The notes beneath the pieces were generated by a model, which did no database searches, was not told where the DNA came from, and saw only the letters and a list, made by a program, of their open reading frames with translations. From Candidatus Leucobacter sulfamidivorax (GTDB taxonomy: Bacteria > Actinomycetota > Actinomycetes > Actinomycetales > Microbacteriaceae), in NCBI GenBank assembly GCA_016771945.1, contig QZLF01000001.1, forward strand, positions 763,447 through 827,446: a stretch of DNA of 64,000 nucleotides, given 5' to 3'. Shown here piece after piece: positions 1-57,857 of the stretch (positions within the stretch are counted from its first letter, which is position 1; each line of letters begins with the position of its first letter). The position numbers and the translations under genes were made by a program.

Positions 1-1080
1 CTCCGAGTAGTCGATCCAGTTGACCGCCGCGCCGGTGATCCCGGCGTCCTTGAACCCCTGGATCTTCTCGACGACCTGCTCGGGGGTGCCCACGAGGGGC
101 GCCGAGTAGTGCCCCATGGCGACGCGCATCTCCTTCGAGTCGAAGGAGAAGTCGGGGGCGGTCTTGAGGTTCATGTCGCTGAACCTCCGCACCGCGTCCC
201 ACTCGCCGAGCTCCTTGATGTAGTGGTCCAGCCTCCGGTGCGCGTCCGCCTCGGTGTCGCCGAGGACGATGCCGATCTGGGTCATCACGTTGATGTCGCG
301 CCCGTAGTCCTCGCGGGCGATCCGCTTCACGCTCTTCACGTAGGCGGCCATGTTCTCGGGGTCGTCGGCGACCATGAAGTTGATGTCGGCGAAGCGCGCG
401 GCGAAGCGCCGCCCGGTCTCGCTGATGGCGGCGTTCATCACGAGGGGCCGGGGCGACTGGATCGCGTGCGGTCTCGAGATCGCGCCCTGCGCGGAGAAGA
501 ACTCGCCGGCGTAGTCGAACTCCTCGTCTTCGGTCCAGAGCCGCTCGACCAGGTCCATCCACTCGGTCGCGAAGGCGTAGCGGTCCGGATGGGCCTTGAC
601 CTCGCGGTCGAACATGGCCATCTCGGCGGCGTTCCAGCCCGCGACGACGTTGAGGCCGAAGCGACCTCCGGAGATGTGGTCGATGGTCGCCGCCTCCTTC
701 GCCATCCGCACGGGGTGGATGGTGGGGGCGTGCACCGTGGCGAAGATGTGGATCCTCGAGGTGATCGCGGCGAGGCCAGCGGCCCAGGGGATCGCCTCGA
801 GGCCCCACTCGTTGTAGCGGGTCCTGCCGCCGAAGCCCTTCCAGCGCGCATTCGGCACCACGGCCTCGAAGCCCGCGGCCTCGGCGGCGAGCGCGATATC
901 GCGCGTCTCCTCCCAGGTCGCGCGCGGGGCGTCCTCGGAGGAGGTGAACCACATGCCGCCCCGGTTGTTGAAGCCGAAGGCGGCCAGGGTGAAGTGGTCC
1001 TCGGCGGAGACCAGCGGGCTCTCGCTCATCGGTCGTCGCTGCGGATCGGGATAGGTGGCGGGCACGTTCGTACTCCTCAT
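1..1080 (-). CDS. RutA/DszA-type LLM flavin monooxygenase (3' end cut by window)
   Basis: Flavin-dependent monooxygenase of the luciferase-like (LLM) superfamily; about 360 codons are present and the C-terminus lies beyond the window edge. The stretches WKGFGGRTRYNEW, AGLAAITSRIHIFA and ISGGRFGLNVVAGWN resemble RutA (pyrimidine ring opening) and the DszA group, which use reduced FMN and oxygen on heterocycles or sulfones. ATG at 1080 gives MRSTNVPATYP; an in-frame ATG at 1029 (MSESPLVS) is an alternative, and neither has a strong ribosome site. It lies 28 bp downstream of the PuuE-like gene and is the last visible gene of the island. RutA-like membership is inferred by eye; the substrate is unknown. 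Confidence 0.82.
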   Translation of the reverse strand, partial: MRSTNVPATYPDPQRRPMSESPLVSAEDHFTLAAFGFNNRGGMWFTSSEDAPRATWEETRDIALAAEAAGFEAVVPNARWKGFGGRTRYNEWGLEAIPWAAGLAAITSRIHIFATVHAPTIHPVRMAKEAATIDHISGGRFGLNVVAGWNAAEMAMFDREVKAHPDRYAFATEWMDLVERLWTEDEEFDYAGEFFSAQGAISRPHAIQSPRPLVMNAAISETGRRFAARFADINFMVADDPENMAAYVKSVKRIAREDYGRDINVMTQIGIVLGDTEADAHRRLDHYIKELGEWDAVRRFSDMNLKTAPDFSFDSKEMRVAMGHYSAPLVGTPEQVVEKIQGFKDAGITGAAVNWIDYSE

Positions 1081-1108
1081 GATTCTCGGTGTCGGCTCGG
1101 CAGGCGGG

Positions 1109-2023
1109 TCAGCGGTCGGATCCGCCGGCGTTCATCGCCTCGACCGCCGCCTCGTAGTGGTGCTGCAGGTACCAGTCGGCGATGTCGTCGCTGGTCGTGT
1201 ACCAGACGTCGTCGCGGCCCGCGATGTGCTCGAGCGCCTCCGCGAGGTAGCGGTGACGGCTCGGCTGGTTGATCAGGAACGGATGCAGCGAGAGCCCGAA
1301 GACCGCGCCGGGGCGCCGCGCGCTCTCCTCGTGCAGCAGGTCGAAGTGGTCCTCGATCATCCGCCCGAAGTCGGGAGCGGTCATGTCGTGGTCGAGGAAC
1401 GCGGGGATGTCGTTGACCTCGATCGAGTAGGGCACCGAGATCATCCGGGCCCCGCCGTCCAGGGCGAGGGGGAACGGCTGGTCGTCGGCGACCCAGTCGA
1501 GCGTGTAGGTGTAGCCGAGCTCGGCCAGCAGCTCGGGGGTGTTCTCCGTCTCGGTCAGCGCCGGACCCAGCCAGCCCCGCGGCGACCTGCCCGTGGCCGC
1601 GGCGATGGTCTCGGTGAGCTCGCGGAGGCCCGCGCGCTCCTCCTCGAGCTCCAGGCCCGTCCACATCTTGGAGTTCGTGGCGCCGTGGCCGAGCCAGGCC
1701 CAGTCGCGGGCGACTCCCGCTTCGACGATCTGCGGGTACTCGGCGCAGACCTCGGCGTTGAGCAGGACGCTCGCACGCATCTCGAAGCGGTCGAGCAGCT
1801 CGATCATGCGCCAGATGCCGACCCGGGTCGAGTAGTCGCGCCAGCCGTGGTTCGCGGGATCGACCGGGAGGTGCGCGGTGAGCGGCAGCACGCTCGTGGA
1901 GGGCGAACCGGCTCGGAAGTGCTCGATGTTCAGGCCGATGTAGAAGGCGAAGCGCTTGCCGTCGGGCCACTCGATCGCGGGCCGCTCGGTGATGGGCCAG
2001 TAGGCGTAGGGAGGGTTCTTCAT
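1109..2023 (-). CDS. PuuE-like polysaccharide-deacetylase-fold hydrolase (copy 1)
   Basis: A 304-residue NodB/polysaccharide-deacetylase-fold protein of the PuuE (cofactor-free allantoinase) and cyclic-imide-hydrolase type rather than a sugar deacetylase. Visible marks are LNIEHF near residue 34, GHGATNSKMW, RSPRGWLGPALTET, a DDQPFPL segment, PYSIEVND and a late GLSLHPFLIN. The same order of motifs is what I recall for PuuE. ATG at 2023 has the ribosome site AAGGAGAT about 6 nt upstream. It starts downstream of the LysR gene after a 108-bp gap, so it may have its own promoter, and it precedes the RutA-like gene. Likely role: hydrolysis of a cyclic amide, imide or ureide; substrate not determinable here. 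Confidence 0.82.
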   Translation of the reverse strand: MKNPPYAYWPITERPAIEWPDGKRFAFYIGLNIEHFRAGSPSTSVLPLTAHLPVDPANHGWRDYSTRVGIWRMIELLDRFEMRASVLLNAEVCAEYPQIVEAGVARDWAWLGHGATNSKMWTGLELEEERAGLRELTETIAAATGRSPRGWLGPALTETENTPELLAELGYTYTLDWVADDQPFPLALDGGARMISVPYSIEVNDIPAFLDHDMTAPDFGRMIEDHFDLLHEESARRPGAVFGLSLHPFLINQPSRHRYLAEALEHIAGRDDVWYTTSDDIADWYLQHHYEAAVEAMNAGGSDR

Positions 2024-2131
2024 GATGATCTCCTTGTCGTTCTCCGGATTGGTCGTGTCGTCGGTCGGTGGGAATGCTCCCCGTGCAAGTCACCATATGG
2101 AGGGGGAGGATCCAGCGGAAACGAATTGCTC

Positions 2132-3103
2132 TCATGCATCCGCATCGATCTCATTCATGTGTTCGGGTCGCGCGTGGCCGAACCGGACGGCGTCCTGCGC
2201 GACCTCGCGCAGGCGCGCGCGCAGCCACTGGTGCCCGGGGTCGGCGTGGGTGCGTCCGGTCCATGCCATGACGGTCGACAGGGGCGGCAACTCCACCGGC
2301 GCCTCGGCGAGCTTCAGCCCGACCGAGCGCGACAGCCGGTGCGCGAGCAGGCGGGAGGTGACCGTGATGAGCGACGTCCCCTTGAGCAGGAACGGGGCGA
2401 GCAGGAAGCCCGCCGTGACCTGGACGTCGCGCGCGACGCCGAGGCGCTCGAGATGGGCGTCGACCAGCGAGGGATGGAGATCGAGGTGCGTGACCACGTG
2501 CGGCATCGTGCAGAACTCCTCGAGCGAGAGGGACTCGCCGAACCGCGCGTTGTCGGCGTCGGCGGCGACCACATGGTGATCCGTGTAGAGGATCTCGTGA
2601 TGGAACCCGCCGACGCCGGGCAGCACCTCCTTCGGGGCGAGGAGGAGGTCCACCTGATCGCGCTCGAGCCCGCCGCCGACGTCGTGGTCGGGAGGCTGGA
2701 TGCGCAGCTGGATCCCCGGCGCCTCCGTCGCGAGCCGTGCGAGCAGCGGGTGGAGGATCGCGGTGGCCTCGTAGTCGCTCGCGGTGACCGTGTAGCTCCG
2801 GCGATCCCTCGCCGGGTCGAAGCCGCTCCTCGCCGCGAGCACCGACCGGACCTCGTCGAGTATCTCCCGGACGCGTCCGGTCATCGCCTCGGCGAGCGGG
2901 GTCACCAGCATCCTCCGGCCGCTGCGCTCGAGGACGGGGTCGTCGAGCAGCGCGCGCAACCGCGCGAGCGAGGCGCTCATCGCGGACTGGGTGACCGACA
3001 TCCGGATCGCCGCGCCGGTGACGCTGCGCTCCGCCATGAGGGCGTCGAACGCCACCAGGAGGTTGAGGTCCACTCTCCTGAGGTCGAACGACTCCGCGGT
3101 CAA
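2132..3103 (-). CDS. LysR-family transcriptional regulator
   Basis: A 323-residue LysR-type regulator. The N-terminal winged helix-turn-helix is plain (DLNLLVAFDALMAERSVTGA, then MSVTQSAMSASLARLR) and is followed by an effector domain of the usual length. The reading frame stays open far upstream, but homology begins at LTAESFDLRRVDLN. The TTG at 3103 overlaps the TGA of the upstream amidohydrolase gene (TTGA), so translational coupling is likely. A regulator embedded in the catabolic operon suggests local control. The 108-bp gap at 2024-2131 in front of the PuuE-like gene is the likeliest place for its operator, although I could not assign a clear T-N11-A site there. Confidence 0.87.
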   Translation of the reverse strand: MTAESFDLRRVDLNLLVAFDALMAERSVTGAAIRMSVTQSAMSASLARLRALLDDPVLERSGRRMLVTPLAEAMTGRVREILDEVRSVLAARSGFDPARDRRSYTVTASDYEATAILHPLLARLATEAPGIQLRIQPPDHDVGGGLERDQVDLLLAPKEVLPGVGGFHHEILYTDHHVVAADADNARFGESLSLEEFCTMPHVVTHLDLHPSLVDAHLERLGVARDVQVTAGFLLAPFLLKGTSLITVTSRLLAHRLSRSVGLKLAEAPVELPPLSTVMAWTGRTHADPGHQWLRARLREVAQDAVRFGHARPEHMNEIDADA

Positions 3104-3753
3104 GAGGCGACCGTGCCCTGCCCGGCGAGGTATGCGACGGTCTCCTCGAGCGAGACGACGTCGGCGTACTTCTGCTCGAGGTCGAACAGCGCCTGCTCGT
3201 GGGCCTGGGGGGAGCGGTCTCCGACCGCCTCCCTCACGACCATCGGACGGAAGCCGTTCTGCACCGCGTCCACCGCGCTCGCACGCACGCAGCCGCTGGT
3301 CGTGCAGCCGACCATGATCAGGGTGTCGATCCCCCGACTCACCAGCCCGGGCACGAGATCGGTGCCGAAGAACACGGACGCGTACTTCTTGGCCAGGACC
3401 TGCTCGCCCGGACGCGCGCCGAGCCGCTCGTCCACCTCCACCTCCCGGGTCCCGGCGCGCAGGGTCGCCAGGCCGGCCTGCTTGAGCGCCCATATCCCGG
3501 CGTCGGCGAGCCCGCCGTCCTGGTACGCCACGGTGGTGTGCACGATCGGCACGCCCGCGGTGCGGGCGGCATCGAGCACCGACCGGGCCGCCGCGATCTC
3601 CGCGGAGAGATCGGAGCCGAGCGGCATCCCGGGATCGGTGAACGCGTTGATGATGTCGATCGACAGGACGGCCGGCCTGGCGCCGAATCCGATCCTCATG
3701 CCGAAGCCCCTGCTGCGGAAGAAGTCCTCACTGCCGCGCTCGTCATCGCTCAT
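3100..3753 (-). CDS. Isochorismatase-fold cysteine amidohydrolase (N-carbamoylsarcosine amidase / maleamate amidase type)
   Basis: A 217-residue cysteine hydrolase of the isochorismatase fold. The Asp-Lys-Cys triad is visible: D33 in VLSIDIINAF, K122 or K123 in KKYASVFFGT, and C155 in GCTTSGCVRAS, preceded by the usual cis-peptide region. The TTSGCVRA motif is the one I associate with N-carbamoylsarcosine amidohydrolase and NicF-type maleamate amidase, which release ammonia from a linear amide or carbamoyl group. It starts 15 bp after the stop of the upstream hydrolase gene and overlaps the LysR start. In context it could process the half-amide formed by the PuuE-like enzymes. Family is secure; the substrate is inferred. 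Confidence 0.88.
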   Translation of the reverse strand: MSDDERGSEDFFRSRGFGMRIGFGARPAVLSIDIINAFTDPGMPLGSDLSAEIAAARSVLDAARTAGVPIVHTTVAYQDGGLADAGIWALKQAGLATLRAGTREVEVDERLGARPGEQVLAKKYASVFFGTDLVPGLVSRGIDTLIMVGCTTSGCVRASAVDAVQNGFRPMVVREAVGDRSPQAHEQALFDLEQKYADVVSLEETVAYLAGQGTVAS

Positions 3754-3768
3754 GTCCGTGATCCCTCT

Positions 3769-4704
3769 CTATTCCGGAGTCGATGCCGAGGTGCGCCTGA
3801 CCAGCTGCTCGACCGCTCGCTCGAACTGGAAGGCCCGGTCGAACTGCACGAGATGGGCCGCCTGGTTGATCAGGTTGAAATCGAGGTGCCCCGTCCCGCC
3901 CGACAGGATCTCGGCGAGCACCGAGCCGCGCGCGACCGAGACGGTCGGATCGCCCGCGCCCCAGACGAGCGAGATCGGCACCGTGTACCCCTCGTTCCTG
4001 CAGTAGGCGTAGAGACGATCCTGCTCCCGCAGCTCGTCCCCGACGAGCGCGGACACGGCGATCGGATCGGCCATCGCGGCCTCGGCCGCGCGATGCGGCG
4101 CGCCCGAGGCGTTGCCGACCATCGCGTCGACGATCTCATCGGGAACCAGCGCCGGCACGTAGGCGAGCCGCCGCACCGCCCAGTTGTGGAAGCGGTGATC
4201 CCAGAACGGCCGCGGCGGGTTCAGCAGCGACACGTTCTGGATGCTGTCGCCGGTCGGCGCCGCCGTATTGGCGCCGATGAGCATGAGCGAGGTCACCGTG
4301 ATGCCCGCGACCCCCTCGCGGGCCATCTTCAGCGCGGCCAGACCCGGTGCGCCCTGGGCGACCACGTGCAGTTCGGTCACCGGGCCGAGCTCTTCGAGCA
4401 GGCGGGCGACGAAGGCGATCGTGCCGTCGACCCTGAGCTCGTCGGCGCTCAGCAGCCCGGTGCCGCCCGCGCCGGGCAGATCGGGGGCGAGCAGACGATA
4501 GCCGTCGAGATCGACGCCCGCGAGCGTCGACGCGAACAGGTCCGAGGACCCGGCGAACGGCGGGCGGCCCGGCGCACCGGGATGCAGGAACAGCACGACC
4601 CGCGATCCCGACCCCCGGCTGTGCAGGCGCACCTGTCGCGTCCCGTCCGAACCGGCGGGCAGCTCCACCGTCGATACCGCGACATCCGTCATCGACTCAG
4701 ACAT
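3769..4704 (-). CDS. Alpha/beta-hydrolase-fold protein lacking the nucleophile serine
   Basis: A 311-residue alpha/beta-hydrolase-fold protein with LFLHPGAPG, APDLPGAGGTG, the acid D252 in WGAGDPTV and the histidine H284 in NQAAHLVQF. The nucleophile elbow, normally GxSxGG, reads AQGAPG at residues 116-121, so glycine 118 occupies the serine position. Either the enzyme works without a serine nucleophile (as in cofactor-independent dioxygenases and some lyases of this fold) or it has a non-catalytic role. Its start overlaps the end of the next hydrolase gene by 8 bp. A canonical family member lies immediately upstream, so the pair may descend from a duplication. Confidence 0.8.
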   Translation of the reverse strand: MSESMTDVAVSTVELPAGSDGTRQVRLHSRGSGSRVVLFLHPGAPGRPPFAGSSDLFASTLAGVDLDGYRLLAPDLPGAGGTGLLSADELRVDGTIAFVARLLEELGPVTELHVVAQGAPGLAALKMAREGVAGITVTSLMLIGANTAAPTGDSIQNVSLLNPPRPFWDHRFHNWAVRRLAYVPALVPDEIVDAMVGNASGAPHRAAEAAMADPIAVSALVGDELREQDRLYAYCRNEGYTVPISLVWGAGDPTVSVARGSVLAEILSGGTGHLDFNLINQAAHLVQFDRAFQFERAVEQLVRRTSASTPE

Positions 4705-5650
4705 CCGAGTCCACCTCCTCCAGGAACGATTCCACGACGCCCCGGAACCACTCCGGGTGCTCGCGGTAGGGAAAATGGCCGCTCTTGTCGACCACGCTCA
4801 GCGTGACCCGCGCCTCGTGCCGGGCCAGCATGTCGTAGAGGTCGTAGCCGAGTCGCACCGGCACGGTGCGATCGCTCAGGCCCCACACGATGTGGACGGG
4901 CCGCTGCAGGCGGCCCTCCTCGAGCCACCTCAGCGTCTCGCGCTTGTCGCGCTGGAGCTCCGGGATGAAGAAGCGCTCGAGCAGCCGGTTCGACTCGATG
5001 CGCTCGAGCATCGTCTGATACTGCTCCTCGTGCAGCAGGTCGACGAAGGGCCTCATCCACTCCTCGGTGACGTGCTCGGTCTTGTGGCTGTAGCCCTGGT
5101 GCACCCAGGTCATGCCCTCGAGCGAGGTCGGCTCGTAGGGGTTGCCCGCGAGCGCCACCGCGTTCATCCCGACGCCGGGGCCGAGGGTGCCCGAGGTCAC
5201 GATCGTGACCGAGCGGACGAGATCCTGCCGCAGCAGCGCCATGCGCGCCACGATGAACCCGCCGCGCGAATGGCCGAGGAGATGCACCGGACCGCAGCCG
5301 AGCTGCTCGAGGAACGCGATCAGGTGATCGATCACGAACTCCATCGTGTAGTCGTCGTCCTCGACCGGCGGCTCGGTGAAGCCGTTGCCGGGCCGGTCGT
5401 AGGTGATGACGCGGGTGCTCCGGGCGAGACCCTCGAAGGTGTCGGCCCAGACCATGGCGCAGTTGCCGCCGCCGAAGGTGGGCGGACCGAAGTTGCCGCC
5501 GTAGACGAGCACCAGCGGAGCGCCGTCCGTCTCGCCGGACTCCGTCCACCAGGTGCGCAGCCCCATCACGTCCATCCAGCGGCCCTCGGCGAGTGCCGGA
5601 TAGCGCGGCACCGCCTCGGTGCCCGCTGCGGGGTCGGTTGCGGTCGTCAT
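4697..5650 (-). CDS. Alpha/beta hydrolase (MhpC-like, canonical triad)
   Basis: A 317-residue alpha/beta hydrolase with an intact triad: the serine of GHSRGG, the aspartate of WGLSDRTVP and the histidine of DKSGHFPYREHPEWF. An N-terminal oxyanion segment (LVYGGNFGPP) and the YDRPGNGFTE strand are also plain. Such proteins cleave esters, amides or C-C bonds in ring-cleavage products. The upstream frame is open, but ATG at 5650 has a GGAGGGG ribosome site 8-9 nt away and overlaps the TGA of the preceding gene (ATGA). It is translationally coupled within the island. The exact reaction cannot be told from sequence. Confidence 0.87.
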   Translation of the reverse strand: MTTATDPAAGTEAVPRYPALAEGRWMDVMGLRTWWTESGETDGAPLVLVYGGNFGPPTFGGGNCAMVWADTFEGLARSTRVITYDRPGNGFTEPPVEDDDYTMEFVIDHLIAFLEQLGCGPVHLLGHSRGGFIVARMALLRQDLVRSVTIVTSGTLGPGVGMNAVALAGNPYEPTSLEGMTWVHQGYSHKTEHVTEEWMRPFVDLLHEEQYQTMLERIESNRLLERFFIPELQRDKRETLRWLEEGRLQRPVHIVWGLSDRTVPVRLGYDLYDMLARHEARVTLSVVDKSGHFPYREHPEWFRGVVESFLEEVDSDV

Positions 5651-6489
5651 CGGGTGATCCCCTCCCTCAGTGCGAACTCGGCGATCTCGTCGCCGCGGGC
5701 GAACCAGACGCCGTCGTGGCTCTGGCAGTACTGGATGAGCTCGCGCACGCGCGGCACGAGCGTCGGGCGGCCGGCCGCGTGGCAGTGCAGCACCAGGCCG
5801 ACCGCGCCGGGCCTGCCGGCCTCGGCCTCGGCGTAGACCGCGTCGAAGGTCGCCTTGAAGCCCTCGACGATGACGTCGGGGGACTTGCCGCCGAACACCC
5901 ACTGCAGCAGGTCGTTCGAGGCCAGGTCGACCGTCGGCACGACGGCGAAATCGCGATCGCCCACCTTCTTCACGAACGGCAGATCGTCGCTCGCGTCGTC
6001 GCCGGTGTAGCGGATGCCCGCGTCGAGCAGGAACTCCTCGGTGTCGACGGAGCCCATCTTGCCGGGGCTCACCCAGCCGGTGGGCCGCTCGCCGCCGGCC
6101 GCCTCGATCGCGTCGAGCGTGCGCCGGATCACCTCGCGCTCCTCCTCGCCGCCGGGCATCAGCTTGTCGTTCACCCAGCCGTGGCCGACGAGCTCGTGGC
6201 CGTGCTCGGCGAGCGCCTGCACGACGTGCGGATGCTGCTCCGCGGCGCGGCCGTTGATCGCCACGGAGGAGACCACGCCGAGGTCGTCCATCAGTTCGAT
6301 CAGCCGCCAGGCGCCGACGTGGGCGCCGTACTCCCCGTAGGAGATCGAGAACGGATTGATCCCCGAGGAGGCCTCGGTGGTGAACTGCGAATGCTCGTCG
6401 AAGGCCTCGAAGGCCGTGATGATCTGCACCGCCACCTTCGCCTGATCCGGCCATTCGATGGTGCGCCAGTGCGGCAGTCTGCTGGTCAT
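5647..6489 (-). CDS. PuuE-like polysaccharide-deacetylase-fold hydrolase (copy 2)
   Basis: A 280-residue NodB-fold protein of the PuuE/imide-hydrolase type, the second such gene in the island and clearly divergent from the one at 1109. Marks include INGRAAEQHPHVVQAL, GHELVGHGWVNDK, GERPTGWVSPGKM, ASDDLPF and the late GLVLHCHAAGRPTLVPRV, close to the PuuE ending GLHC..GRPGR as I remember it. ATG at 6489 follows AGAGGAAC; an upstream in-frame ATG at 6507 is less well placed. A 77-bp gap separates it from the SDR gene, the longest gap between 3100 and 12238. It probably hydrolyses a cyclic amide bond that differs from the substrate of copy 1. Confidence 0.83.
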   Translation of the reverse strand: MTSRLPHWRTIEWPDQAKVAVQIITAFEAFDEHSQFTTEASSGINPFSISYGEYGAHVGAWRLIELMDDLGVVSSVAINGRAAEQHPHVVQALAEHGHELVGHGWVNDKLMPGGEEEREVIRRTLDAIEAAGGERPTGWVSPGKMGSVDTEEFLLDAGIRYTGDDASDDLPFVKKVGDRDFAVVPTVDLASNDLLQWVFGGKSPDVIVEGFKATFDAVYAEAEAGRPGAVGLVLHCHAAGRPTLVPRVRELIQYCQSHDGVWFARGDEIAEFALREGITR

Positions 6490-6566
6490 GCTCTCTGTTC
6501 CTCTCATTGTGCGATCCGGACGCTCCGGACGGGGCGCCCGCGGGTGTCGTCGGGGCGGCGCGCGGC

Positions 6567-7394
6567 TCAGCCCTCCTCGCGCAGGCTGTGAACGCCGCCG
6601 TCGATGGTGAGCGTCTCGCCCGTCATCCACTCCGATTCGTCCGAGGCGAGGTACACGGCCGCCATGGCGATGTCGGACGGGCGCCCGATGCGCCGCAGCG
6701 GGATCGACGCGGTGATCTGCTCGCGGGCGCCCGGCTCCGCGATGATCGGTGCGGTCACGGGGGCCTCGATGAATCCGGGCAGGATGGCGTTGGAGCGGAT
6801 GCGGTGCGGTGCGCCCTCCGCCGCCGCCTGTCGTGTCAGGCCCAGGATCCCCGCCTTCGCCGCGCTGTGACCGGCGCTCGAGCCGGGGGTGCGCACCGGA
6901 ACGGGCATGCCCTGCACCGCCGCGGTCGAGGAGGTGGAGACGATGCTGCCGCCGCCGCCGCGCACGAAGTGCGGCCAGGCGGCCCGGATCGTATCGAAGA
7001 CCATGACGAGCTCCCCGCGGATGGTGAACTCGAAGGCCTCGAGCGCATCGGGGTCCTCGATGCGCCGCATCCGCACGGCCGCGGCGTTGTTGTAGAGCAC
7101 GTCGATACGGCCGTGACGGCCGATGCCCTCCTCGATCCAGGCCTCGGGCGCGCCCGGGGCCATCAGGTCGACGGGGTGCTGCGAGGTCACCGTGCCGTGG
7201 CCGGGCTCGTGGGCCGCGGCCGCGAGCGCGAGGGTCTCCTCGGCTCCCGCCGCGTCGAGGTCGCAGCCGAACACCGTGGCGCCCTGGCGGGCGAACTCGA
7301 GGGCGGCCTCCCTGCCCTGGCCGCCGGCGATGCCCGTGATGAAGGCGACCTTTCCGGCCAGGCGGCCGGTGCCGGGCCGAGTCGTGCCGTTCAT
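6567..7394 (-). CDS. Short-chain dehydrogenase/reductase with His in place of the catalytic Tyr
   Basis: A 275-residue classical SDR: nucleotide-binding TGIAGGQG near residues 20-27, D74-D76-type acidic strand end (HPVDLM), YNNAA at 101-105, catalytic serine region STSS at 153-156 and PGFIE at 206-210. The YxxxK motif reads HSAAK at 176-180, so histidine replaces tyrosine, and about seven extra residues lie between the serine and this site. I recall SDR subgroups with such a change, so it need not be inactive. ATG at 7394 overlaps the stop of the upstream monooxygenase gene (ATGA). It probably oxidises or reduces an alcohol or carbonyl intermediate of the island pathway. Confidence 0.87.
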   Translation of the reverse strand: MNGTTRPGTGRLAGKVAFITGIAGGQGREAALEFARQGATVFGCDLDAAGAEETLALAAAAHEPGHGTVTSQHPVDLMAPGAPEAWIEEGIGRHGRIDVLYNNAAAVRMRRIEDPDALEAFEFTIRGELVMVFDTIRAAWPHFVRGGGGSIVSTSSTAAVQGMPVPVRTPGSSAGHSAAKAGILGLTRQAAAEGAPHRIRSNAILPGFIEAPVTAPIIAEPGAREQITASIPLRRIGRPSDIAMAAVYLASDESEWMTGETLTIDGGVHSLREEG

Positions 7395-8584
7395 GCGATG
7401 CCTCCGATCGGTGCGAGGGGATGGGGTCGGGCGCGGAGCGCAGGCCCCGGCGGGGCGAGTTCCGAGCGGAGGTCGAGCAGAGGGAGCAGCAGGTCCGCGA
7501 CGCGATACGCCTCCTCGAGGAAGGGCGGCGCCCAGAGGATGAATCGGTCGATGCCGGCGAGCTCCTGGATCTCCCGCATGCGCTCCGCGACCTGCTCGGC
7601 CGAGCCGATCAGCATCGCCCCCGGCAGGGGGAGTGCGCGGATGAGGTCGAGGCCGAGGCGCTCGATGGGACCGTTCCAGAGGTTGGGATAGAACTCGAGG
7701 TCCCGCGGCTCGGGCAGCCGCCCCTCGGTGACCGCGTCCAGGCAGCGCCGCTGGCGGTCGTCGAGCTCGGACCGGTCGACCTCGAGCGCCGCCCGGTAGC
7801 CGATGTTGGAGCGGACGGTCTCGAGGGGCATGCGGGCCAGGCGCCGACGGGCCGCCTCCCACGCCTCCTCCTCCGTTTCGCGGACCAGCACGCCGAGCGA
7901 CACCCCGAAGTGGGGCACCCGCAGGCCGTTCGCCACCGCGAAGTCGCGCGCGGCCCGGGTGCGCTCGGCCATCTCCTGGGGAGTGCCCGCCGCGGGGAGG
8001 TAGGTGTCCACCAGCGGGACCACCGCGCTCAGGCCCGCGGGCGATCCGCCGGCGCCCCACAGCGGCGGATGGGGCGTCTGCATCGGCTCGATCCCGAGGA
8101 GGTGCTCGGGGTGGTCGATATCGAAGTACCTGCCGTTCGCGGGGCTTCCGCCCGCGTAGAGCTCGGCGAACGAACGCCAGTACTCCTCCAGCATGGCGTA
8201 GCGCTCCTCCTTGTCGAAGTGCAGCCCGTGAGCGGCCATCGTCAGAGGATTGCTGCCGACGATGTTGAGCATCAGCCGGCCCTCCGAGAGATGGTCGAGC
8301 GTGAGCGCCTGGAGCGCGAGCTGGGTCGGAGTGACGACCCCCGGGTAGGTGGCGATGAGGAAGCGCATCCGCCGGGTCCTGGTCGCCGCAGCCGCGGCGA
8401 TGGCCCAGGGATCGTAGGCGCCGGGCACGCCGATGGCCATCAGGGCGCCCGAGAACGGCAGATTGTCGATCGCGCTCGCCACCTGCAGCAGCCGCTGCGG
8501 ATCCCAGCGCCAGCGGCGCGCGGGATCCCAGGGAAACTCTCCGTCGGTCTCGCCGCCGAGGGTCCAGAAGACGTCCATGCTCAT
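7391..8584 (-). CDS. SsuD-like LLM flavin-dependent monooxygenase
   Basis: A 397-residue LLM monooxygenase. The opening MSMDVFWTLGGETDG, the central LDHLSEGRLMLNIVGSNP and the late IDRFILWAPPFLEEAYRVADLLLPLL match FMNH2-dependent alkanesulfonate monooxygenase SsuD position for position by eye ([26 protein letters not shown]). ATG at 8584 overlaps the stop of the permease gene (ATGA); a second ATG lies at 8578. No flavin reductase gene is seen nearby, so reduced FMN must come from elsewhere. It could desulfonate or hydroxylate an imported compound; SsuD-family members are diverse, so the substrate is open. Confidence 0.88.
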   Translation of the reverse strand: MSMDVFWTLGGETDGEFPWDPARRWRWDPQRLLQVASAIDNLPFSGALMAIGVPGAYDPWAIAAAAATRTRRMRFLIATYPGVVTPTQLALQALTLDHLSEGRLMLNIVGSNPLTMAAHGLHFDKEERYAMLEEYWRSFAELYAGGSPANGRYFDIDHPEHLLGIEPMQTPHPPLWGAGGSPAGLSAVVPLVDTYLPAAGTPQEMAERTRAARDFAVANGLRVPHFGVSLGVLVRETEEEAWEAARRRLARMPLETVRSNIGYRAALEVDRSELDDRQRRCLDAVTEGRLPEPRDLEFYPNLWNGPIERLGLDLIRALPLPGAMLIGSAEQVAERMREIQELAGIDRFILWAPPFLEEAYRVADLLLPLLDLRSELAPPGPALRARPHPLAPIGGIA

Positions 8585-9636
8585 GATCCGGCGCCCTCCT
8601 TCGCGGTGCTCTGAGCCGGCGGCGCGATGACCGCGGAGTCGCCGTCGAGATGCTGCCGCAGCATCCGGCGGCGGCGACGACGGCCGAAGACCTGATCGCC
8701 GAGCACCGCGGCGACGAGGATGACGCCGGTCACGACCTGCTGCCAGAAGCTCTGCACGCCGGCGAGGCTGAGGCCGTTCTGCAGGATGCCGATAAAGAGC
8801 ACGCCGAGCGCGGTGCCGCCGACGCCGCCGACGCCGCCCGCCAGTGCGGTGCCGCCGAGCAGCACGGCCGCGGCGGCCTGGAGCGGCAGTTCGACGTTGA
8901 CCTGCGGCGAGGCCGCTCCGATGCGGCCCGCTGCGATGATGCCGGCGAGGGCGGCGCATCCGCCCACGATCGCGTAGACCGCCACGATCGTACGGGTCGT
9001 GCGGATGCCCGAGAGGCGCGCCGCAGTGACGCTGCCGCCGACGGCGTACATGTCGCGTCCGAAGAAGGTGCGCGACTGCACGATCAGGGCGATCAGGAAG
9101 ATGATCAGCATGATCCAGACCGGCGTGGGGACGCCCAGGGTGAAGGTGACGCCGATCCAGCGGATCAGCGGATCGGCGATATTGATCGTCTCTGTCTCCG
9201 ACCAGAGGTTCACGATGCCCGTGTACGCCGTCATTGTCGCGAGCGTGACCACGAAGAACGAGAGCCCCAGTTTGCCGATCAGCATGCCGTTGACCAGGCC
9301 GCCCACGACGACACCGCCCACGACGCAGACGATCACCGCCGCCCAGGCCGGCAGACCCGCGGTGAGCATCTTGCCGAGGGCGATGGCGGAGAGCGCCGCG
9401 ACGGCCCCCACGGAGAGGTCGAAGCCGCCGACGATCGTCACGAAGGTCATGCCCATGGCCACGATCCAGACCACTGCGATCGAGGTGAGCAGGTTGGTGA
9501 GGTTGCGAGCCAGGAAGAAATTGGGCAGCAGGAACGAGAAGGCGGTGAACATCACCACGACGAGTACGAGCACCGGGCGGAAGTTGCCCGTCATGCCCCA
9601 GATCCGGGCGAGGGGCGAACTAGTCTTCGCGGTCAT
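8581..9636 (-). CDS. ABC transporter permease, RbsC/carbohydrate-type
   Basis: A 351-residue integral membrane protein of the RbsC/XylH-type permease family, with about eight to ten hydrophobic segments and the typical GGFDLSVGAVAALSAI segment plus GGTALAGGVGGVGGT near the C-terminus. ATG at 9636 has AGGAGGA 8-10 nt upstream and lies 17 nt inside the ATPase gene, ahead of the ATPase stop at 9620. The C-terminal tail is arginine-rich (GRRRRRR) and cytoplasmic. With the ATPase and lipoprotein it forms an importer; such systems carry sugars but also autoinducer-2, nucleosides and purine-like compounds, which suits a heterocycle island. Confidence 0.9.
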   Translation of the reverse strand: MTAKTSSPLARIWGMTGNFRPVLVLVVVMFTAFSFLLPNFFLARNLTNLLTSIAVVWIVAMGMTFVTIVGGFDLSVGAVAALSAIALGKMLTAGLPAWAAVIVCVVGGVVVGGLVNGMLIGKLGLSFFVVTLATMTAYTGIVNLWSETETINIADPLIRWIGVTFTLGVPTPVWIMLIIFLIALIVQSRTFFGRDMYAVGGSVTAARLSGIRTTRTIVAVYAIVGGCAALAGIIAAGRIGAASPQVNVELPLQAAAAVLLGGTALAGGVGGVGGTALGVLFIGILQNGLSLAGVQSFWQQVVTGVILVAAVLGDQVFGRRRRRRMLRQHLDGDSAVIAPPAQSTAKEGAGS

Positions 9637-11164
9637 AGAGGGCTCCTCCTGTGTAGAGTCCGAGTTGGAATTCGTCGGTGGTCGAGGCGTCGAGATCGGC
9701 GACCACACGACCGCTCGCCAGCACGACGATGCGGTCGCAGAGCTCGAGCAGTTCGGGGTTCTCCGACGACGAGACGAGAATGGTCGTTCCGGCCGCGGCC
9801 GCCGCCTTGAGCAGGGTGTAGATCTCGCGCTTCGCCGAGACGTCGACGCCCCGGGTCGGTTCGTCGAGCAGCAGCACGGTCGAGCCGGCGACCGTCCATT
9901 TGCCGAGCGCCACCTTCTGCTGCCCGCCGCCGCTCAGGGTGCTCACTGGCACGTCGGGGCCGTCGGCCTTGACCTGCATGGCCGCCATCGCCTCCTCCAC
10001 CAGGGTGCGCACGCGCGCGATGCGCGGGGAGCGTAGGCGCGGCATCGTCATCGTGGCCGCCATCGCCATGTTGTCGCCGATCGAGCGCTTGAGCACGAGT
10101 CCCTGGGTCTTGCGATCGGGCGGCAGATAGCCGATCCCGCTCGCGATCGCGGTGCGCGGGTCGCGCGGCGCGTACGGCTCCCCGTCGAGCAGCATGGTGC
10201 CCGAATCGGCGTGGCCGACGCCGAAGAGGGTCTCGAGCAGCTCGGAGCGGCCGGATCCGGTGAGGCCTGCGAGTCCGACGATCTGCCCGGGGGAGACCTG
10301 GAGGCTGATGCCCTCGAAGACGCCGGTCAGAGTGAGAGCCCGGACCTCCAGCGCGTGGTGGCCCGTCTCGGCCGCGGCGGGCCGGGGCATCGCCTCGGCC
10401 ACGACGGCGTTGACCGGATGGCCGACCATGGCGTCGACCAGCGTCTCCGCGGTGAAGTCCGCGGCCGGGCCGGCGGCCACGGTGCGTCCCTCGCGCAGCA
10501 CGGTGATCTCGTCGGCGATCTCGAACATCTCGGGCATCCGGTGGGAGACGAAGATCACCGAGACGCCCTGGGCGGTGACCGCGCGCACCGCGGCGAAGAG
10601 GCCCTCGACCTCGCGCCGCCCGAGCGAGCTGGTGGGCTCGTCGAGGATGAGGATGCGCGCGTCCATCGACAGCGCCCGCGCCACCTCGACCATCTGCTGG
10701 CGGTCGGGGCTGAGCGTGCCGACGAGCACGGCCGGGTCGATGTCGACTCCGAGGCCGGCCAGGATCTCCGCGGCGGCCCGCTCGGTGCGTCGCCAGTCGA
10801 TCCCGAAGGGGCCGCGTACGAGCCGGCGCCCCATGAGCACGTTCTCGGCCACGGTGAGCTGGGGCGCGAGCGCGGTCTCCTGGGAGACCATCACGATGCC
10901 GCGGGCGATCGCCTCCGACGGCGAGCCGAGTTCGATCGGCCCGCCGTCGAGGAGGATCTCTCCGGCGTCGGGCCGCTGCTGCCCGGAGAGGATCCCGAGC
11001 AGCGTGGACTTGCCGCAGCCGTTCTGCCCGATCAATCCGAGCACCTGCCCCGGGCGGCCGATCGTGAGATCGGCCCCCCGGAGCGCGTGGACCCCGCCGA
11101 AGCGCTTCTCGATGCCGCGCAGTTCGAGCAGTGGCCGCTCGCCGCGATCATGAGTCGAGGTCAT
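9620..11164 (-). CDS. ABC transporter ATPase with two nucleotide-binding domains (RbsA/MglA type)
   Basis: A 514-residue ATPase with tandem ABC domains. Domain 1 has Walker A GQNGCGKST at 46-54, the signature LSPDRQQ and Walker B LILDEPTSSL. Domain 2 has the degenerate Walker A GLTGSGRSE usual for this family, then LSGGGQQKVALGKW and LLLDEPTRGVD. Two fused domains are typical of ribose/galactose-type importers. Its start is 6 bp downstream of the binding-protein stop. It powers import of the island substrate together with the permease. Confidence 0.93.
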   Translation of the reverse strand: MTSTHDRGERPLLELRGIEKRFGGVHALRGADLTIGRPGQVLGLIGQNGCGKSTLLGILSGQQRPDAGEILLDGGPIELGSPSEAIARGIVMVSQETALAPQLTVAENVLMGRRLVRGPFGIDWRRTERAAAEILAGLGVDIDPAVLVGTLSPDRQQMVEVARALSMDARILILDEPTSSLGRREVEGLFAAVRAVTAQGVSVIFVSHRMPEMFEIADEITVLREGRTVAAGPAADFTAETLVDAMVGHPVNAVVAEAMPRPAAAETGHHALEVRALTLTGVFEGISLQVSPGQIVGLAGLTGSGRSELLETLFGVGHADSGTMLLDGEPYAPRDPRTAIASGIGYLPPDRKTQGLVLKRSIGDNMAMAATMTMPRLRSPRIARVRTLVEEAMAAMQVKADGPDVPVSTLSGGGQQKVALGKWTVAGSTVLLLDEPTRGVDVSAKREIYTLLKAAAAAGTTILVSSSENPELLELCDRIVVLASGRVVADLDASTTDEFQLGLYTGGALYDRED

Positions 11165-11170
11165 CGACGA

Positions 11171-12238
11171 TCAGCCTGCGATGCCGACCACGGAATCGGC
11201 GTTCTCGGCGGTGACGAGCGTCGGTGCCGGGACGATCTGCTTCGGCAGCGGCAGGTTCTGCTCGGTGAGGAGGTTGTAGAGCCCCCACACCTGCTGGATG
11301 CCGATCTGCTCGGTGTCCAGCAGAACGGTGCCGGTCACGCCGCCTTCCTTGATGAGGTCGATCGTCGTCTGGTGGCCGCTGATGCCGTAGACGAGGACGT
11401 CGTCGATGCCGGCTGCGGCCAGCGTGTTCGCGGCCGCCGAGGCTGCAGCGTCGTTGTAGGTGATGATGACCTTGACATCCGGGTTGCGGGTGATGATGGT
11501 GTTCGTCGCGTCGGCCGAGGCCTCGGAGGTGTCGCCCTGCGCGTCGACCCGCTCGGTGAACTCCAGGCCGAACTCGCCGGCCCAGTGCTCGGCACGACCG
11601 ATCGAGTACTGCAGCAGCGGCACAGGGATGTTCACGCCGATCGTCGCGAACTTGGTGCCGGGAGCCAGGGAGGCCGCGTTCTGAGCGGTCAGGTAGCGCG
11701 GGTAGTCGACGCCCTGGAGCACCGCGGAGGTGTAGCTCGGCAGCAGCTCCTCGCCGGCCTGCGGCGGCGTGTCCTGTCCGACGATCGGGATGCCCAGGCT
11801 CGCGGCCTCCTCGAGGCAGGGGCCGAGAGCGGAGGGATCGACGCCGTAGACGGCGATCGCATCGACGCCCTGCGCGATCAGCTGGTTGCACTGGCTGACC
11901 TGGTTGTCGACGTTCAGACCGGCATCGAGCCCGATGAACTCGCCGCCGAGGCGCTCGGTCTCGGCCTTGCCCGCGTCGTAGACGGCCTTCACGAAGGCGT
12001 TCGCCAGCGTCGGGGTGAGCCAGCCGATGGTGAAGGAGTAGCCCTCCTGGATCTCGGGTTCGCCGTAGGAGGATTCGAGCCCGCCCTCCGCGCCGTCGAA
12101 GGCGACATCGGGCGCCTCGGCCGAGTTGCCGCCGCCGGTCTCGGGTGCGGTGCTCTCGCCTCCGCCGGAGGCGCAGCCGGTGAGCGCCAGGGCCGCGATG
12201 GCCACCATGGCGGCGAGCGCGGAAGTGGTGTGCTTCAT
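11171..12238 (-). CDS. Substrate-binding lipoprotein of the ABC importer
   Basis: A 355-residue periplasmic-binding-type lipoprotein. The signal peptide ends in the lipobox ALTGC with the lipidated cysteine at residue 22, followed by a glycine/serine linker and a sugar-binding-protein-like domain of the Peripla_BP_4 type (IGWLTPTLANAFVKAVYDAG, QLIAQGVDAIAVYGVDPSAL, IVGQDTPP). ATG at 12238 follows AAGGAA. It is the first gene of the island operon and is divergent from the TetR gene, so the intergenic palindrome at 12376-12392 is likely to control both. The ligand is unknown. Confidence 0.9.
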   Translation of the reverse strand: MKHTTSALAAMVAIAALALTGCASGGGESTAPETGGGNSAEAPDVAFDGAEGGLESSYGEPEIQEGYSFTIGWLTPTLANAFVKAVYDAGKAETERLGGEFIGLDAGLNVDNQVSQCNQLIAQGVDAIAVYGVDPSALGPCLEEAASLGIPIVGQDTPPQAGEELLPSYTSAVLQGVDYPRYLTAQNAASLAPGTKFATIGVNIPVPLLQYSIGRAEHWAGEFGLEFTERVDAQGDTSEASADATNTIITRNPDVKVIITYNDAAASAAANTLAAAGIDDVLVYGISGHQTTIDLIKEGGVTGTVLLDTEQIGIQQVWGLYNLLTEQNLPLPKQIVPAPTLVTAENADSVVGIAG

Positions 12239-12375
12239 GGTTTCGGTTCCTTATCGTCTGGGCGGTGAGCCGGTTCGGTACGGAGCGCCTGAGGCGAGCA
12301 AGCCGGTGATGCAGGGGGACGGCGCAGAGGAGGGTGGCGGCTTGCCGCAGAGATCTATCACTGTCAACATTGAAG

Positions 12376-12392
12376 TGTTAGCACCTCTAACA
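12376..12392. promoter_or_regulatory. Candidate TetR operator between the importer and TetR genes
   Basis: A perfect palindrome TGTTAGCACCTCTAACA (6-bp arms, 5-bp spacer) lies in the AT-richer part of the 278-bp divergent region 12239-12516. TATAAC at 12399-12404 and TTGACA on the minus strand (12367-12362) flank it, so it overlaps plausible promoter elements. Size and symmetry fit a TetR-family operator; assignment to the adjacent TetR gene is inferred. The rest of the gap shows no gene. Confidence 0.5.
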
Positions 12393-12516
12393 GAGATTTA
12401 TAACACACGCCGTTGGGGTGCGGAAGATCCATTTCCCGAGTTGTTACTCGACCGACACACGGCCGTCGCACTGCCACGGCGGAAAGGCCCCCGTGCCGCG
12501 CAACTATGATTCGTAT

Positions 12517-13245
12517 GTGAGCAGCAGCGAGAAGATCAGCACCGCGGACCGGATCGTTCGGGCGGCCGCGGCGTTGCTCGCCGAGGGCGGACGGGACGCC
12601 GTCTCCACGCGCACGGTCTCGCAGGCGGCCGGGGTGCAGACCCCGACGATCTACCGCCTGTTCGGCGATATGCGGGGTCTCTTCGACGCGGTGGCGACCT
12701 ACGGCTTCTCCGAGTACCTCGCCAGCACGCTGCTCCCGGAGGGGCCGGTCGACCCGCTCGACGAGCTGCGCCGCGGCTACGACATGCACGTCGAGTTCGG
12801 TCTCACCAACCCGGGCATCTACAAGCTCATGTACGGCTCCCCGACCCCCGGGGTGCAGGCCGAGTTCATGCGCGATACGCTGCGCACCCTGGAGCAGCGG
12901 GTGGAGAACGTCGCCCGGGCGGGGCTGCTGCGGGTCAGCATGGAGGAGGCGGTGCTGATGATGCACTCCGTGGCCTCCGGGGTGACGATGACGCTGCTCG
13001 GCCTGTTCCCCGAGCAGCGCGATCTGAGCATCGTCGCGACATGCCGGGAGGCGACGATCGCGGCGATGACCGTGCCCGAGGCCGAGGTGCTGCAGAGCCC
13101 TCGGGACCCGGTGGCCGAGGGCGCGATCACCATCGACGCGCATCTCGACGGGCTGCAGGACGTGCTGTCGGACGGCGAGCGGGCGCTGCTCGGAGAGCTG
13201 CTCGCCCGCATCGCCCGCAGAGCGCCCCGCGCCGCCGCGGAGTGA
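12517..13245 (+). CDS. TetR-family transcriptional regulator
   Basis: A 242-residue TetR/AcrR regulator with the helix-turn-helix ARIVRAAAALLAEGG-type helix 1 region and VSTRTVSQAAGVQTPTIYRLF recognition helices near residues 25-50, followed by an all-helical ligand domain. The frame is open upstream to 12418, but GTG at 12517 (VSSSEKISTADR) is preferred. TATGAT at 12505-12510 lies 6 nt before it, matching the leaderless promoters seen at many genes of this window. It is divergent from the importer operon and probably represses it until a pathway compound binds. Confidence 0.87.
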   Translation: MSSSEKISTADRIVRAAAALLAEGGRDAVSTRTVSQAAGVQTPTIYRLFGDMRGLFDAVATYGFSEYLASTLLPEGPVDPLDELRRGYDMHVEFGLTNPGIYKLMYGSPTPGVQAEFMRDTLRTLEQRVENVARAGLLRVSMEEAVLMMHSVASGVTMTLLGLFPEQRDLSIVATCREATIAAMTVPEAEVLQSPRDPVAEGAITIDAHLDGLQDVLSDGERALLGELLARIARRAPRAAAE

Positions 13246-57082: not shown

Positions 57083-57113
57083 ACGCGCAATCCGAGAAAT
57101 GGAGCATTTCGAG

Positions 57114-57857
57114 ATGACTGGAACACATGCAGGCCGCGTCGCGATCGTCACCGGAGCGGCGCTGGGCATCGGGCAGGAGACGGCCATCCGTCTCGCCGAG
57201 CGTGGGGCACGGCTCGTGCTGATGGATCTCGCCGGCAGCGCCGAAACAGCGAAGCGGATCACCGAACTCGGCGGAGAGGCGCTCGATCTCACGGCCGATG
57301 TCTCGTCGCCCGATGACTGGCAGCGGGTCGCGCAGGAGACGGTGCGGCGTTTCGGCCGCGCCGACATCCTCGTGAACAACGCGGGCATCTATCCCTTCGC
57401 GACGATCGACGACCTGGACTACGAGCTCTGGTCCCGGGTGCAGCGGATCAACCTCGACGGTCCGTTCCTCGGGGCGAAGACCTTCGCGCCGATCATGGCC
57501 GAGAACGGCTGGGGGCGCATCGTGAATCTCTCCTCGAACTCGATCGCGACCAACCTCGCCGGGCTCAGCCACTACATGGCGGCGAAGATGGGAGTCATCG
57601 GACTCACTCGAGGCCTCGCGAACGACCTCGCCGATCGCGGGATCACCGTGAACGCGGTCGCCCCCGCGATCACGAGGACACCGGGGACCAGCATCATGCC
57701 GCAGGAGCTGCTCGATTTCGTCTGGAACCTTCAGGCCATCAAGCGCTTCGCGGATCCGACCGACATCGTCGGGCCGATCCTGTTCCTCACGAGCGACGAC
57801 GGGCAGTTCGTCACCGGTCAGACCCTCGCCGTCGACGGCGGGTACATGAAGCTGTAG
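57114..57857 (+). CDS. Short-chain dehydrogenase/reductase
   Basis: A 247-residue classical SDR: VTGAALGIGQETA, DILVNNAG, NLSSNS, the catalytic SHYMAAK (Tyr and Lys present) and VDGGYMKL at the end. ATG at 57114 has GGAG 9 nt upstream; ATG at 57099 is an in-frame alternative. Last gene of the meta-cleavage operon, it could oxidise a dihydrodiol or an alcohol intermediate to the catechol or ketone. Confidence 0.9.
   Translation: MTGTHAGRVAIVTGAALGIGQETAIRLAERGARLVLMDLAGSAETAKRITELGGEALDLTADVSSPDDWQRVAQETVRRFGRADILVNNAGIYPFATIDDLDYELWSRVQRINLDGPFLGAKTFAPIMAENGWGRIVNLSSNSIATNLAGLSHYMAAKMGVIGLTRGLANDLADRGITVNAVAPAITRTPGTSIMPQELLDFVWNLQAIKRFADPTDIVGPILFLTSDDGQFVTGQTLAVDGGYMKL

Follow-up and report, generated by a model that had tools for sequence, protein, structure and literature searches.

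A 15.8-kb accessory island in Candidatus Leucobacter sulfamidivorax, possibly for the breakdown of a nitrogen-bearing phthalate-like compound

Which compound might be broken down by a gene set that combines a sugar-type importer with two flavin-type oxygenases, two NodB proteins and an amidohydrolase of the N-carbamoylsarcosine type? This question is raised by one end of a stretch of 64,000 nucleotides ("the window") from the 3.84-Mb genome of Candidatus Leucobacter sulfamidivorax (contig QZLF01000001.1, positions 763,447 to 827,446; G000:C1:763447-827446). We find there a 15.8-kb accessory island, from -2547 to 13245 in window numbering, made up of 15 genes on the same strand and one divergent TetR gene. 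Our best explanation, which we hold tentatively, is that the island serves the catabolism of a nitrogen-bearing derivative of a (hetero)aromatic ortho-dicarboxylic acid, for example a substituted phthalimide or phthalamate. We favour it because the product of gene O matches a phthalate-type decarboxylase, that of gene I resembles a protein of strain RHA1, and both G and the structural model of H come nearest to the monoalkyl phthalate hydrolase MehpH, and because homologues of K, I, N and O sit together on a plasmid of Microbacterium sediminis.

The original prediction had described positions 1..12238 as a catabolic island. Its account of the gene content is borne out by Pfam and NCBIfam scans of 20 proteins: a CUT2-type (RbsBAC-like) ATP-binding cassette (ABC) importer, two luciferase-like monooxygenases (LLMs), two PuuE-like NodB proteins, a carbamoylsarcosine-type protein, two proteins of the alpha/beta-hydrolase fold and a short-chain dehydrogenase (SDR), all on the minus strand. 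Its extent had to be revised, as the run continues to -2547 (L005:15453), adding a second SDR, a protein of the class II aldolase type and a homologue of dihydroxyphthalate decarboxylase; the window edge clips the unit, and three genes lie beyond it entirely. From A to O the order is CUT2 importer, LLM, SDR, NodB, G, H, amidase, LysR, NodB, LLM, SDR, N and O (negative positions lie beyond the window edge):

12493..13245, plus strand: TetR-family regulator (PF00440), divergent, at the right end of the island; 94% identical in a sister metagenome-assembled genome (MAG)
11171..12238, minus strand: A, binding protein of the CUT2-type ABC importer (PF13407, 108.8 bits)
9620..11164, minus strand: B, importer ATPase, AraG/RbsA-like (PF00005; NCBIfam AraG 440.6 bits, below the cut-off of 689)
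8581..9636, minus strand: C, importer permease (PF02653, 122.6 bits)
7391..8584, minus strand: D, LLM flavin monooxygenase, a distant SsuD relative (PF00296, 149.8 bits)
6567..7394, minus strand: E, SDR (PF13561, 159.7 bits)
5647..6489, minus strand: F, NodB/PuuE-type protein of a rare clade, presumed cyclic amide or imide hydrolase (TIGR03212, 130.6 bits)
4697..5650, minus strand: G, MehpH-related alpha/beta hydrolase that retains the GHSRG motif, the Asp and the His (PDB 8hgv, 112.6 bits)
3769..4704, minus strand: H, alpha/beta-hydrolase-fold protein of 311 amino acids without the nucleophile serine
3100..3753, minus strand: I, isochorismatase-fold amidohydrolase, PatE / N-carbamoylsarcosine clade (PDB 26st, 214.8 bits)
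2132..3073, minus strand: J, LysR-type regulator inside the gene run (PF00126, PF03466)
1109..2023, minus strand: K, second NodB protein (TIGR03212, 102.2 bits), 58% identical to a Microbacterium sediminis plasmid NodB
-65..1029 (window part 1..1029), minus strand: L, RutA/SfnG-like LLM, closest to SfnG and RutA and under both cut-offs
-829..-83, minus strand, beyond the window: M, SDR; best NCBIfam model the pyridoxal 4-dehydrogenase SDR
-1532..-822, minus strand, beyond the window: N, class II aldolase-type protein (3,4-dihydroxyphthalate decarboxylase model 105.9, below the cut-off of 200)
-2547..-1558, minus strand, beyond the window: O, 4,5-dihydroxyphthalate decarboxylase homologue (PDB 9jp7)

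The O protein matches the solved 4,5-dihydroxyphthalate decarboxylase 9jp7 over its whole length (271.6 bits, E 9e-80; the next match scored 14.8), and annotated 4,5-dihydroxyphthalate decarboxylases on Novosphingobium plasmids are 55% identical to it. This similarity points to a phthalate-like ortho-diacid. Pfam gave weak binding-protein matches only and an export signal is absent by eye; a role of O as a transporter part was rejected on account of the whole-length match to the decarboxylase structure. Homologues of O occur in 193 plasmid records (at 1e-15, with up to 56% identity), some of which (L069:15693-16682 and L078:16001-16993) carry the annotation of an ABC transporter substrate-binding protein.

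Judged by its sequence, I is a member of the PatE / N-carbamoylsarcosine amidohydrolase clade, since its Asp, Lys and Cys positions, which we take to form the triad of that clade, align with those of 26st. It is 55% identical to an RHA1 protein encoded next to the ABC transporter of the phthalate region; that protein differs by one residue from 26st, which was deposited as an N-carbamoylsarcosine amidohydrolase. We take the RHA1 protein to be PatE, partly from its position beside this transporter and partly from what Hara et al. 2010 are reported to have found. Two sources were also drawn on for this assignment: PMC6362181 names N-carbamoylsarcosine amidohydrolase domains among phthalate hydrolases, and PMC13040137 enters PatE as 'N.A.' in its hydrolase classification. 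PatE is aligned with serine hydrolases in PMC6164851, which is a less good fit to the clade of I. A creatinine pathway, suggested by I alone, was discarded, as none of the remaining proteins in the set of 20 spoke for it.

The plasmid neighbourhoods connect these genes with each other. On the M. sediminis plasmid a 7.6-kb segment carries homologues of K (58%), I (53%), N (60%) and O (51%) together; it adjoins genes for a dioxygenase alpha subunit, hcaB and a PatE-like protein that are 73%, 69% and 73% identical to their RHA1 counterparts, and the genes beside the segment are 57-73% identical to RHA1 phthalate-region genes. A K-like NodB (at least 50% identity) was found in 11 plasmid records, and in 8 of these (M. 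sediminis, M. paraoxydans, Kocuria, Citricoccus, three Rhodococcus and Gordonia) an I-like gene lies no more than about 6 kb away, as read from match positions and five opened regions, the plasmid annotations being incomplete. An amidase-type gene of some fold lies within 6 kb in 9 of the 11 opened K-family neighbourhoods; in Aminobacter it adjoins the NodB gene in the one opened of two records, while no I-like gene was found near the K-like NodB in the Embleya record, where usable annotation is absent. Gordonia and R. ruber have MehpH-like, K-like and I-like genes in this order; ahead of the I-like gene there is a stretch of about 0.8 kb for which no gene is listed. Genes similar to N and O are near one another in S. 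chiapasense (38% and 42%) and in G207 (56% and 44%), there together with Rieske-type genes.

F and K both belong to the NodB/PuuE-type superfamily of cyclic amide hydrolases, K as far as its sequence tells and F also by its predicted fold (AlphaFold2 model, pLDDT 81.7; top Foldseek matches 1z7a, 3s6o and 3cl6). Glu28, His103-Gly104, Asp164 and His235 of F are invariant across 10 rows that include K. Neither can be regarded as PuuE itself, as both lie far under the cut-off of the PuuE allantoinase model TIGR03212 (424.6). In a tree of 33 rows (three with long branches, and with the K-like rows of Gordonia and Rhodococcus left out) F falls into a clade of five rows and K groups with six plasmid NodB proteins, three of them from phthalate clusters, each with support of 99/98; both clades are separate from the two PuuE rows. 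An F-clade NodB (E 1e-45 or better) occurs in one of 396 phylum genomes, namely this one, which has a second copy on contig C2, while some F relative was found at 1e-20 in 18 of 199 family genomes. As a separate observation, a plasmid of Roseateles sp. XES5 (L035:5224-9903) has sugar-type ABC importer genes followed directly by a NodB gene, with no LLM in the annotated stretch.

F is also the first member of a recurring gene trio. A scan of genome contigs gave 32 loci, all of which were compared by tblastn with 15 island proteins; gene calls were made for 12 loci, 11 of these and one plasmid locus. F and G occur together in 4 of the 32 (L037-L040). NodB, G and H are consecutive in five loci (the window, C2 of the same genome, L037, L038 and L040), with a NodB-G overlap of 4 nt in all five and G-H overlaps of 8, 14, 8, 11 and 11 nt, respectively; L039, the sister of the C2 copy, is truncated by a contig end and is consistent with the same arrangement. 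For H of the island the gene caller, a custom codon-usage script that also missed a paralogue of N at G000:C1:379803, had proposed a start at 4596, yet the ATG at 4704 suits the homologues better and gives the 8-nt overlap with G. Importers and LLMs vary among these loci. On C2 the order is IclR, LLM, Liv importer, NodB, hydrolase, H-type and SDR (G000:C2:464044-474517; L032:6045-16518), and the H-type gene there is broken by a change of reading frame, either in reality or by assembly error.

The two hydrolase-fold proteins of the trio differ at the nucleophile. G retains GHSRG, Asp and His in all seven rows aligned, one of them the Gordonia plasmid MehpH-like protein, and has homologues in two plasmid records (34.6%). 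In H the nucleophile position is Gly (4 rows), Asp (1) or Ala (2) in all seven rows, with a Ser two positions later in two of them, and the Asp and His are retained in the five full-length rows; its AlphaFold2 model (pLDDT 80.4) finds its best Foldseek match in MehpH (8hgv), closely followed by C-C hydrolases. One could imagine NodB-G-H to be an undescribed, translationally coupled three-protein module that actinobacteria pair with interchangeable importers and LLMs, in which NodB would open the imide, G would be an active MehpH-like hydrolase and H, its twin without the nucleophile, would serve as a lyase or a partner, and which would here be joined to a phthalate-like branch with LLMs replacing the Rieske dioxygenase, so that N-substituted aromatic imides would be degraded by a new aerobic route; taken together, this combination of assumptions is rather unlikely to hold in full.

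The oxygenases give less information on the substrate. D had been called SsuD-like, which is right as to kinship, though the relation is distant: it reaches 222.1 bits with the SsuD equivalog TIGR03565 (cut-off 518.2) and 180.7 bits with the alkanesulfonate monooxygenase structure 7jv3. Five of the six residues that we take to form the sulfonate site of SsuD are replaced, the positions of Cys54, Arg226, His228, Trp196 and Tyr331 being Ala, Ser, Gly, Ala and Pro, while Arg297 is kept, and D was therefore rejected as SsuD. According to PMC8234197, proteins other than SsuD do not share its substrate site, and the residues that are conserved have the binding of flavin and dioxygen as their main task. 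Asn104 of the MsuD pocket aligns with Asn107 of D (residues counted by hand). At E 1e-60 D has a match in 2 of 54 genus genomes and at E 1e-70 in 1 of 394 class genomes, both counts taking in this genome itself, and no homologue was found in plasmid records at 1e-45; the whole genome gives 33 matches to the LLM family with an E value of 1e-20 or lower. A further SDR gene, 46% identical to M, lies at 57099-57857 within a plus-strand gene run at 53-58 kb of the window. There is no flavin reductase among the 20 proteins scanned, so that FMNH2 (reduced flavin mononucleotide) would have to come from elsewhere, or a different cofactor is used. Elsewhere, L-like LLM genes lie beside genes for flavin reductase and GTP cyclohydrolase II (L081:8903-16248 and L082:9962-17986), which suggests a local FMN supply at such loci. 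GTP cyclohydrolase II in L037 was considered as a signal of pyrimidine degradation, presumably of URC type, and dropped, as in Variovorax and R. etli, too, this enzyme is encoded beside an LLM and a flavin reductase, so that FMN supply is an equally good reading.

The borders of the island show in a comparison with congeners. In all four congeners fetched (out of 25 others that match the left neighbour, the sister MAG G632 not being counted) a glutamine-synthetase-like gene is followed by one gene of 514-524 amino acids and then by gcvP-gcvT, where the window genome has 15 genes plus the TetR gene, the latter also without counterpart in the gap of these four. The single gene (L130:5712-7277, the only one scanned) is ethanolamine-permease-like (338.6 bits, below the cut-off of 381.75), and a glutamine-synthetase-like cluster adjoins it. 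In G632 one contig carries the synthetase-like gene, O, N, M, L and K and another carries E, D, C, B, A, TetR and gcvP, so that both outer borders are seen while the middle (the rest of F to J) is outside the view; portions of the island and of the paralogous cluster are found, with protein identities of 87-99%, on two contigs of an uncultured Leucobacter MAG. Conserved gene order, which had been suggested as a check, was found for the NodB-G-H core, not for the island in the four congeners, and only as two separate ends in G632. The rarity of D makes a gain of the island seem more likely than its loss in the congeners; its GC content (0.703) resembles that of the flanks (0.698 and 0.713) and so tells nothing about age or donor. 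No repeat of 12 or more bases is shared by the two border stretches that were compared. The left-side genes (glutamine-synthetase-like, PuuD-like, aldehyde dehydrogenase, SDR and GntR) were rejected as part of the operon, as the synthetase-like gene, which we take to be of GlnA4 type and which is present in 27 of 54 genus genomes (E 1e-150), keeps its neighbours in the congeners.

Within the island, tight chaining, as first proposed, holds for most junctions (overlaps of 17, 4, 4, 4, 8 and 8 nt; gaps of 6, 15, 26, 17 and 25 nt) and is interrupted by wider gaps at E-F (77 nt), J-K (108 nt) and K-L (79 nt). From this spacing, co-transcription may be predicted. Terminator-like sites in window 1-13000 number 2 (shuffle mean 2.1); a promoter scan gave no match there and one in L005:12500-20000 (shuffle mean 0.3).

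For the phthalate-type explanation, we infer the following reactions, their order and a common regulation. The CUT2 importer would take up the compound, and the SDRs E and M and the LLMs D and L, the latter dependent on FMNH2 and acting in place of a Rieske dioxygenase, might oxidise its side chain or ring. K, F or both could open the cyclic imide to the half-amide, G could cleave an ester or amide side arm, and I would hydrolyse the half-amide or half-ester to the diacid, with H as a non-hydrolytic partner or a lyase. N and O would decarboxylate the hydroxylated diacid, and ring cleavage would be encoded elsewhere in the genome, where three intradiol and three LigB-type matches are candidates.

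Several observations weigh against this scheme. The island lacks the Rieske dioxygenase gene that classical phthalate degradation would require, and the sole Ring_hydroxyl_A match of the genome (40-41% to phthalate dioxygenase alpha) is on another contig. RHA1 and Arthrobacter FB24 have the I-like gene and no K-like gene within 12 kb, and in three Rhodococcus plasmids the K-like NodB is matched in two pieces (L086:7001-7838) and possibly broken, so K is dispensable for phthalate itself; three of the six plasmid NodB proteins of the K clade (Aminobacter, Streptomyces and Embleya) lie outside phthalate clusters as far as seen. In the F-clade loci of Micromonospora and Nocardioidaceae neither I nor O was seen, and in the F-G-H loci elsewhere there was no I, and O only in L037 (44%). 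N, itself below the 3,4-dihydroxyphthalate decarboxylase cut-off, has four paralogues in its own genome (49-81%), one of them in a CUT2 importer-IclR-thiamine pyrophosphate enzyme-LLM-aldehyde dehydrogenase island, so N alone is no marker of phthalate; at three places of such paralogues the only phthalate reference protein matched was the class II aldolase-type one. An island of the same genome (L111:8785-18757, on G000:C1) runs CUT2 importer, IclR, thiamine pyrophosphate enzyme, LLM, aldehyde dehydrogenase and an N-type gene (83%). Finally, the open-licence PMC papers searched held no test of a NodB protein on phthalimide and nothing on point for bacterial phthalimide genes.

In view of these objections any assignment of a substrate is tentative, and catabolism of an N-heterocycle of the pyridine or vitamin B6 type is a serious rival, if on balance an unlikely one. 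An LLM would open the ring, an alpha/beta hydrolase and a NicF-like amidase would release acid and ammonia, and the aldolase-type decarboxylase would act on a hydroxypyridine dicarboxylate. The best model of M, from vitamin B6 degradation, agrees with this (246 bits), as do the matches of N to Mlr6791 (83.5 bits), which we take to be the 3-hydroxy-2-methylpyridine-4,5-dicarboxylate decarboxylase of the B6 pathway, and of I to 3ot4 (147.6 bits), presumably of NicF type. A fungal nicotinate pathway moreover employs a cyclic imidase related to the NodB fold and a ketoreductase, according to PMC9304392. M, however, stays below its cut-off of 325 and N below its own, O is specific to the dihydroxyphthalate decarboxylase group, and no Asp/Glu racemase-type (maleate isomerase) gene was found among the proteins scanned.

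Less probable still as the substrate is an imide or amide that is not aromatic and bears an oxygenated side chain, of the glutarimide type, in which an SDR would yield a ketone, an LLM would carry out a Baeyer-Villiger oxidation, G would cut the ester and NodB would open the imide, N and O serving some other step. LLM, SDR, NodB, G and H do recur jointly without I or O in L038 and L040, with flavin reductase genes inside both loci, yet O, I, K and their phthalate-plasmid kin would be left unexplained; Baeyer-Villiger activity is known within the LLM superfamily. To a similarly small degree one may consider that A-I and K-O are two unrelated, adjacent operons, each with its own substrate, given that the LysR gene J and gaps of 108 and 79 nt lie between them, that the F-G-H core is found elsewhere without K-O, and that only the window genome shows the two halves side by side, the ends in G632 being on different contigs. 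Against this, both halves fill one gap, which holds a single gene in 4/4 congeners, both outer borders recur in G632, and homologues of I from the first half and of K, N and O from the second co-occur on the M. sediminis plasmid. The echo of Rut pyrimidine degradation that had been noted is superficial: L, I and G have weak matches to the RutA, RutB and RutD families, which are far under the cut-offs (RutA, 498.3: L 156.6 and D 35.5; RutB, 377.95: I 46.8), and no RutC-, RutE-, RutF- or RutG-type Pfam match was found among the 20 proteins, so that the Rut pathway as such was rejected as extremely improbable, in line with the earlier view that the set does not match Rut proper.

The general idea that a cyclic amide, imide or N-heterocycle is degraded by a route not yet described fits the NodB proteins, I and the pairs of K-like and I-like plasmid genes; what shifts the emphasis towards a phthalate-like ortho-diacid is O, beyond the window. 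As originally supposed, no characterised cluster of this gene order was found in the open-licence papers, and we could not match the gene combination to any pathway described there. If the phthalate-type explanation is right, the island would provide genes by which aromatic cyclic imides and half-amides are degraded, for which no description was found in these papers, and would suggest a role for the 'polysaccharide deacetylase' genes of several phthalate plasmids. H, a conserved hydrolase-fold protein without nucleophile, would be a subject for mechanistic study, and some annotated ABC substrate-binding proteins are homologues of dihydroxyphthalate decarboxylase.

Among known systems, the actinobacterial plasmid clusters for phthalate or phthalate esters (RHA1 pRHL2, Arthrobacter FB24, Gordonia rubripertincta SD5 and Microbacterium sediminis YLB-01) share with the island the PatE/carbamoylsarcosine-type hydrolase and class II aldolase-type genes and, except for RHA1 and FB24, the K-like NodB; the Gordonia cluster also has a MehpH-like hydrolase and that of M. 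sediminis an O homologue. They differ in having Rieske dioxygenase genes and other transporters, where the island has LLMs, the CUT2 importer, F and H. The C2 cluster and its kin in Micromonospora sp. MA102 and Nocardioidaceae BIN47 have in common with the island the overlapping NodB-G-H core, an LLM and an SDR, and BIN47 also a homologue of N, but they have a branched-chain-type importer, IclR and an NtaA-like LLM, and I, K and O were not seen in them. The Rut pathway shares an LLM and an isochorismatase-fold hydrolase with the island. PuuE allantoinase and the NodB-type cyclic imidase HxnM have the same fold as that predicted for F, whose His positions align with those of PuuE-type proteins, whereas F and K form clades of their own and score well under the PuuE cut-off.

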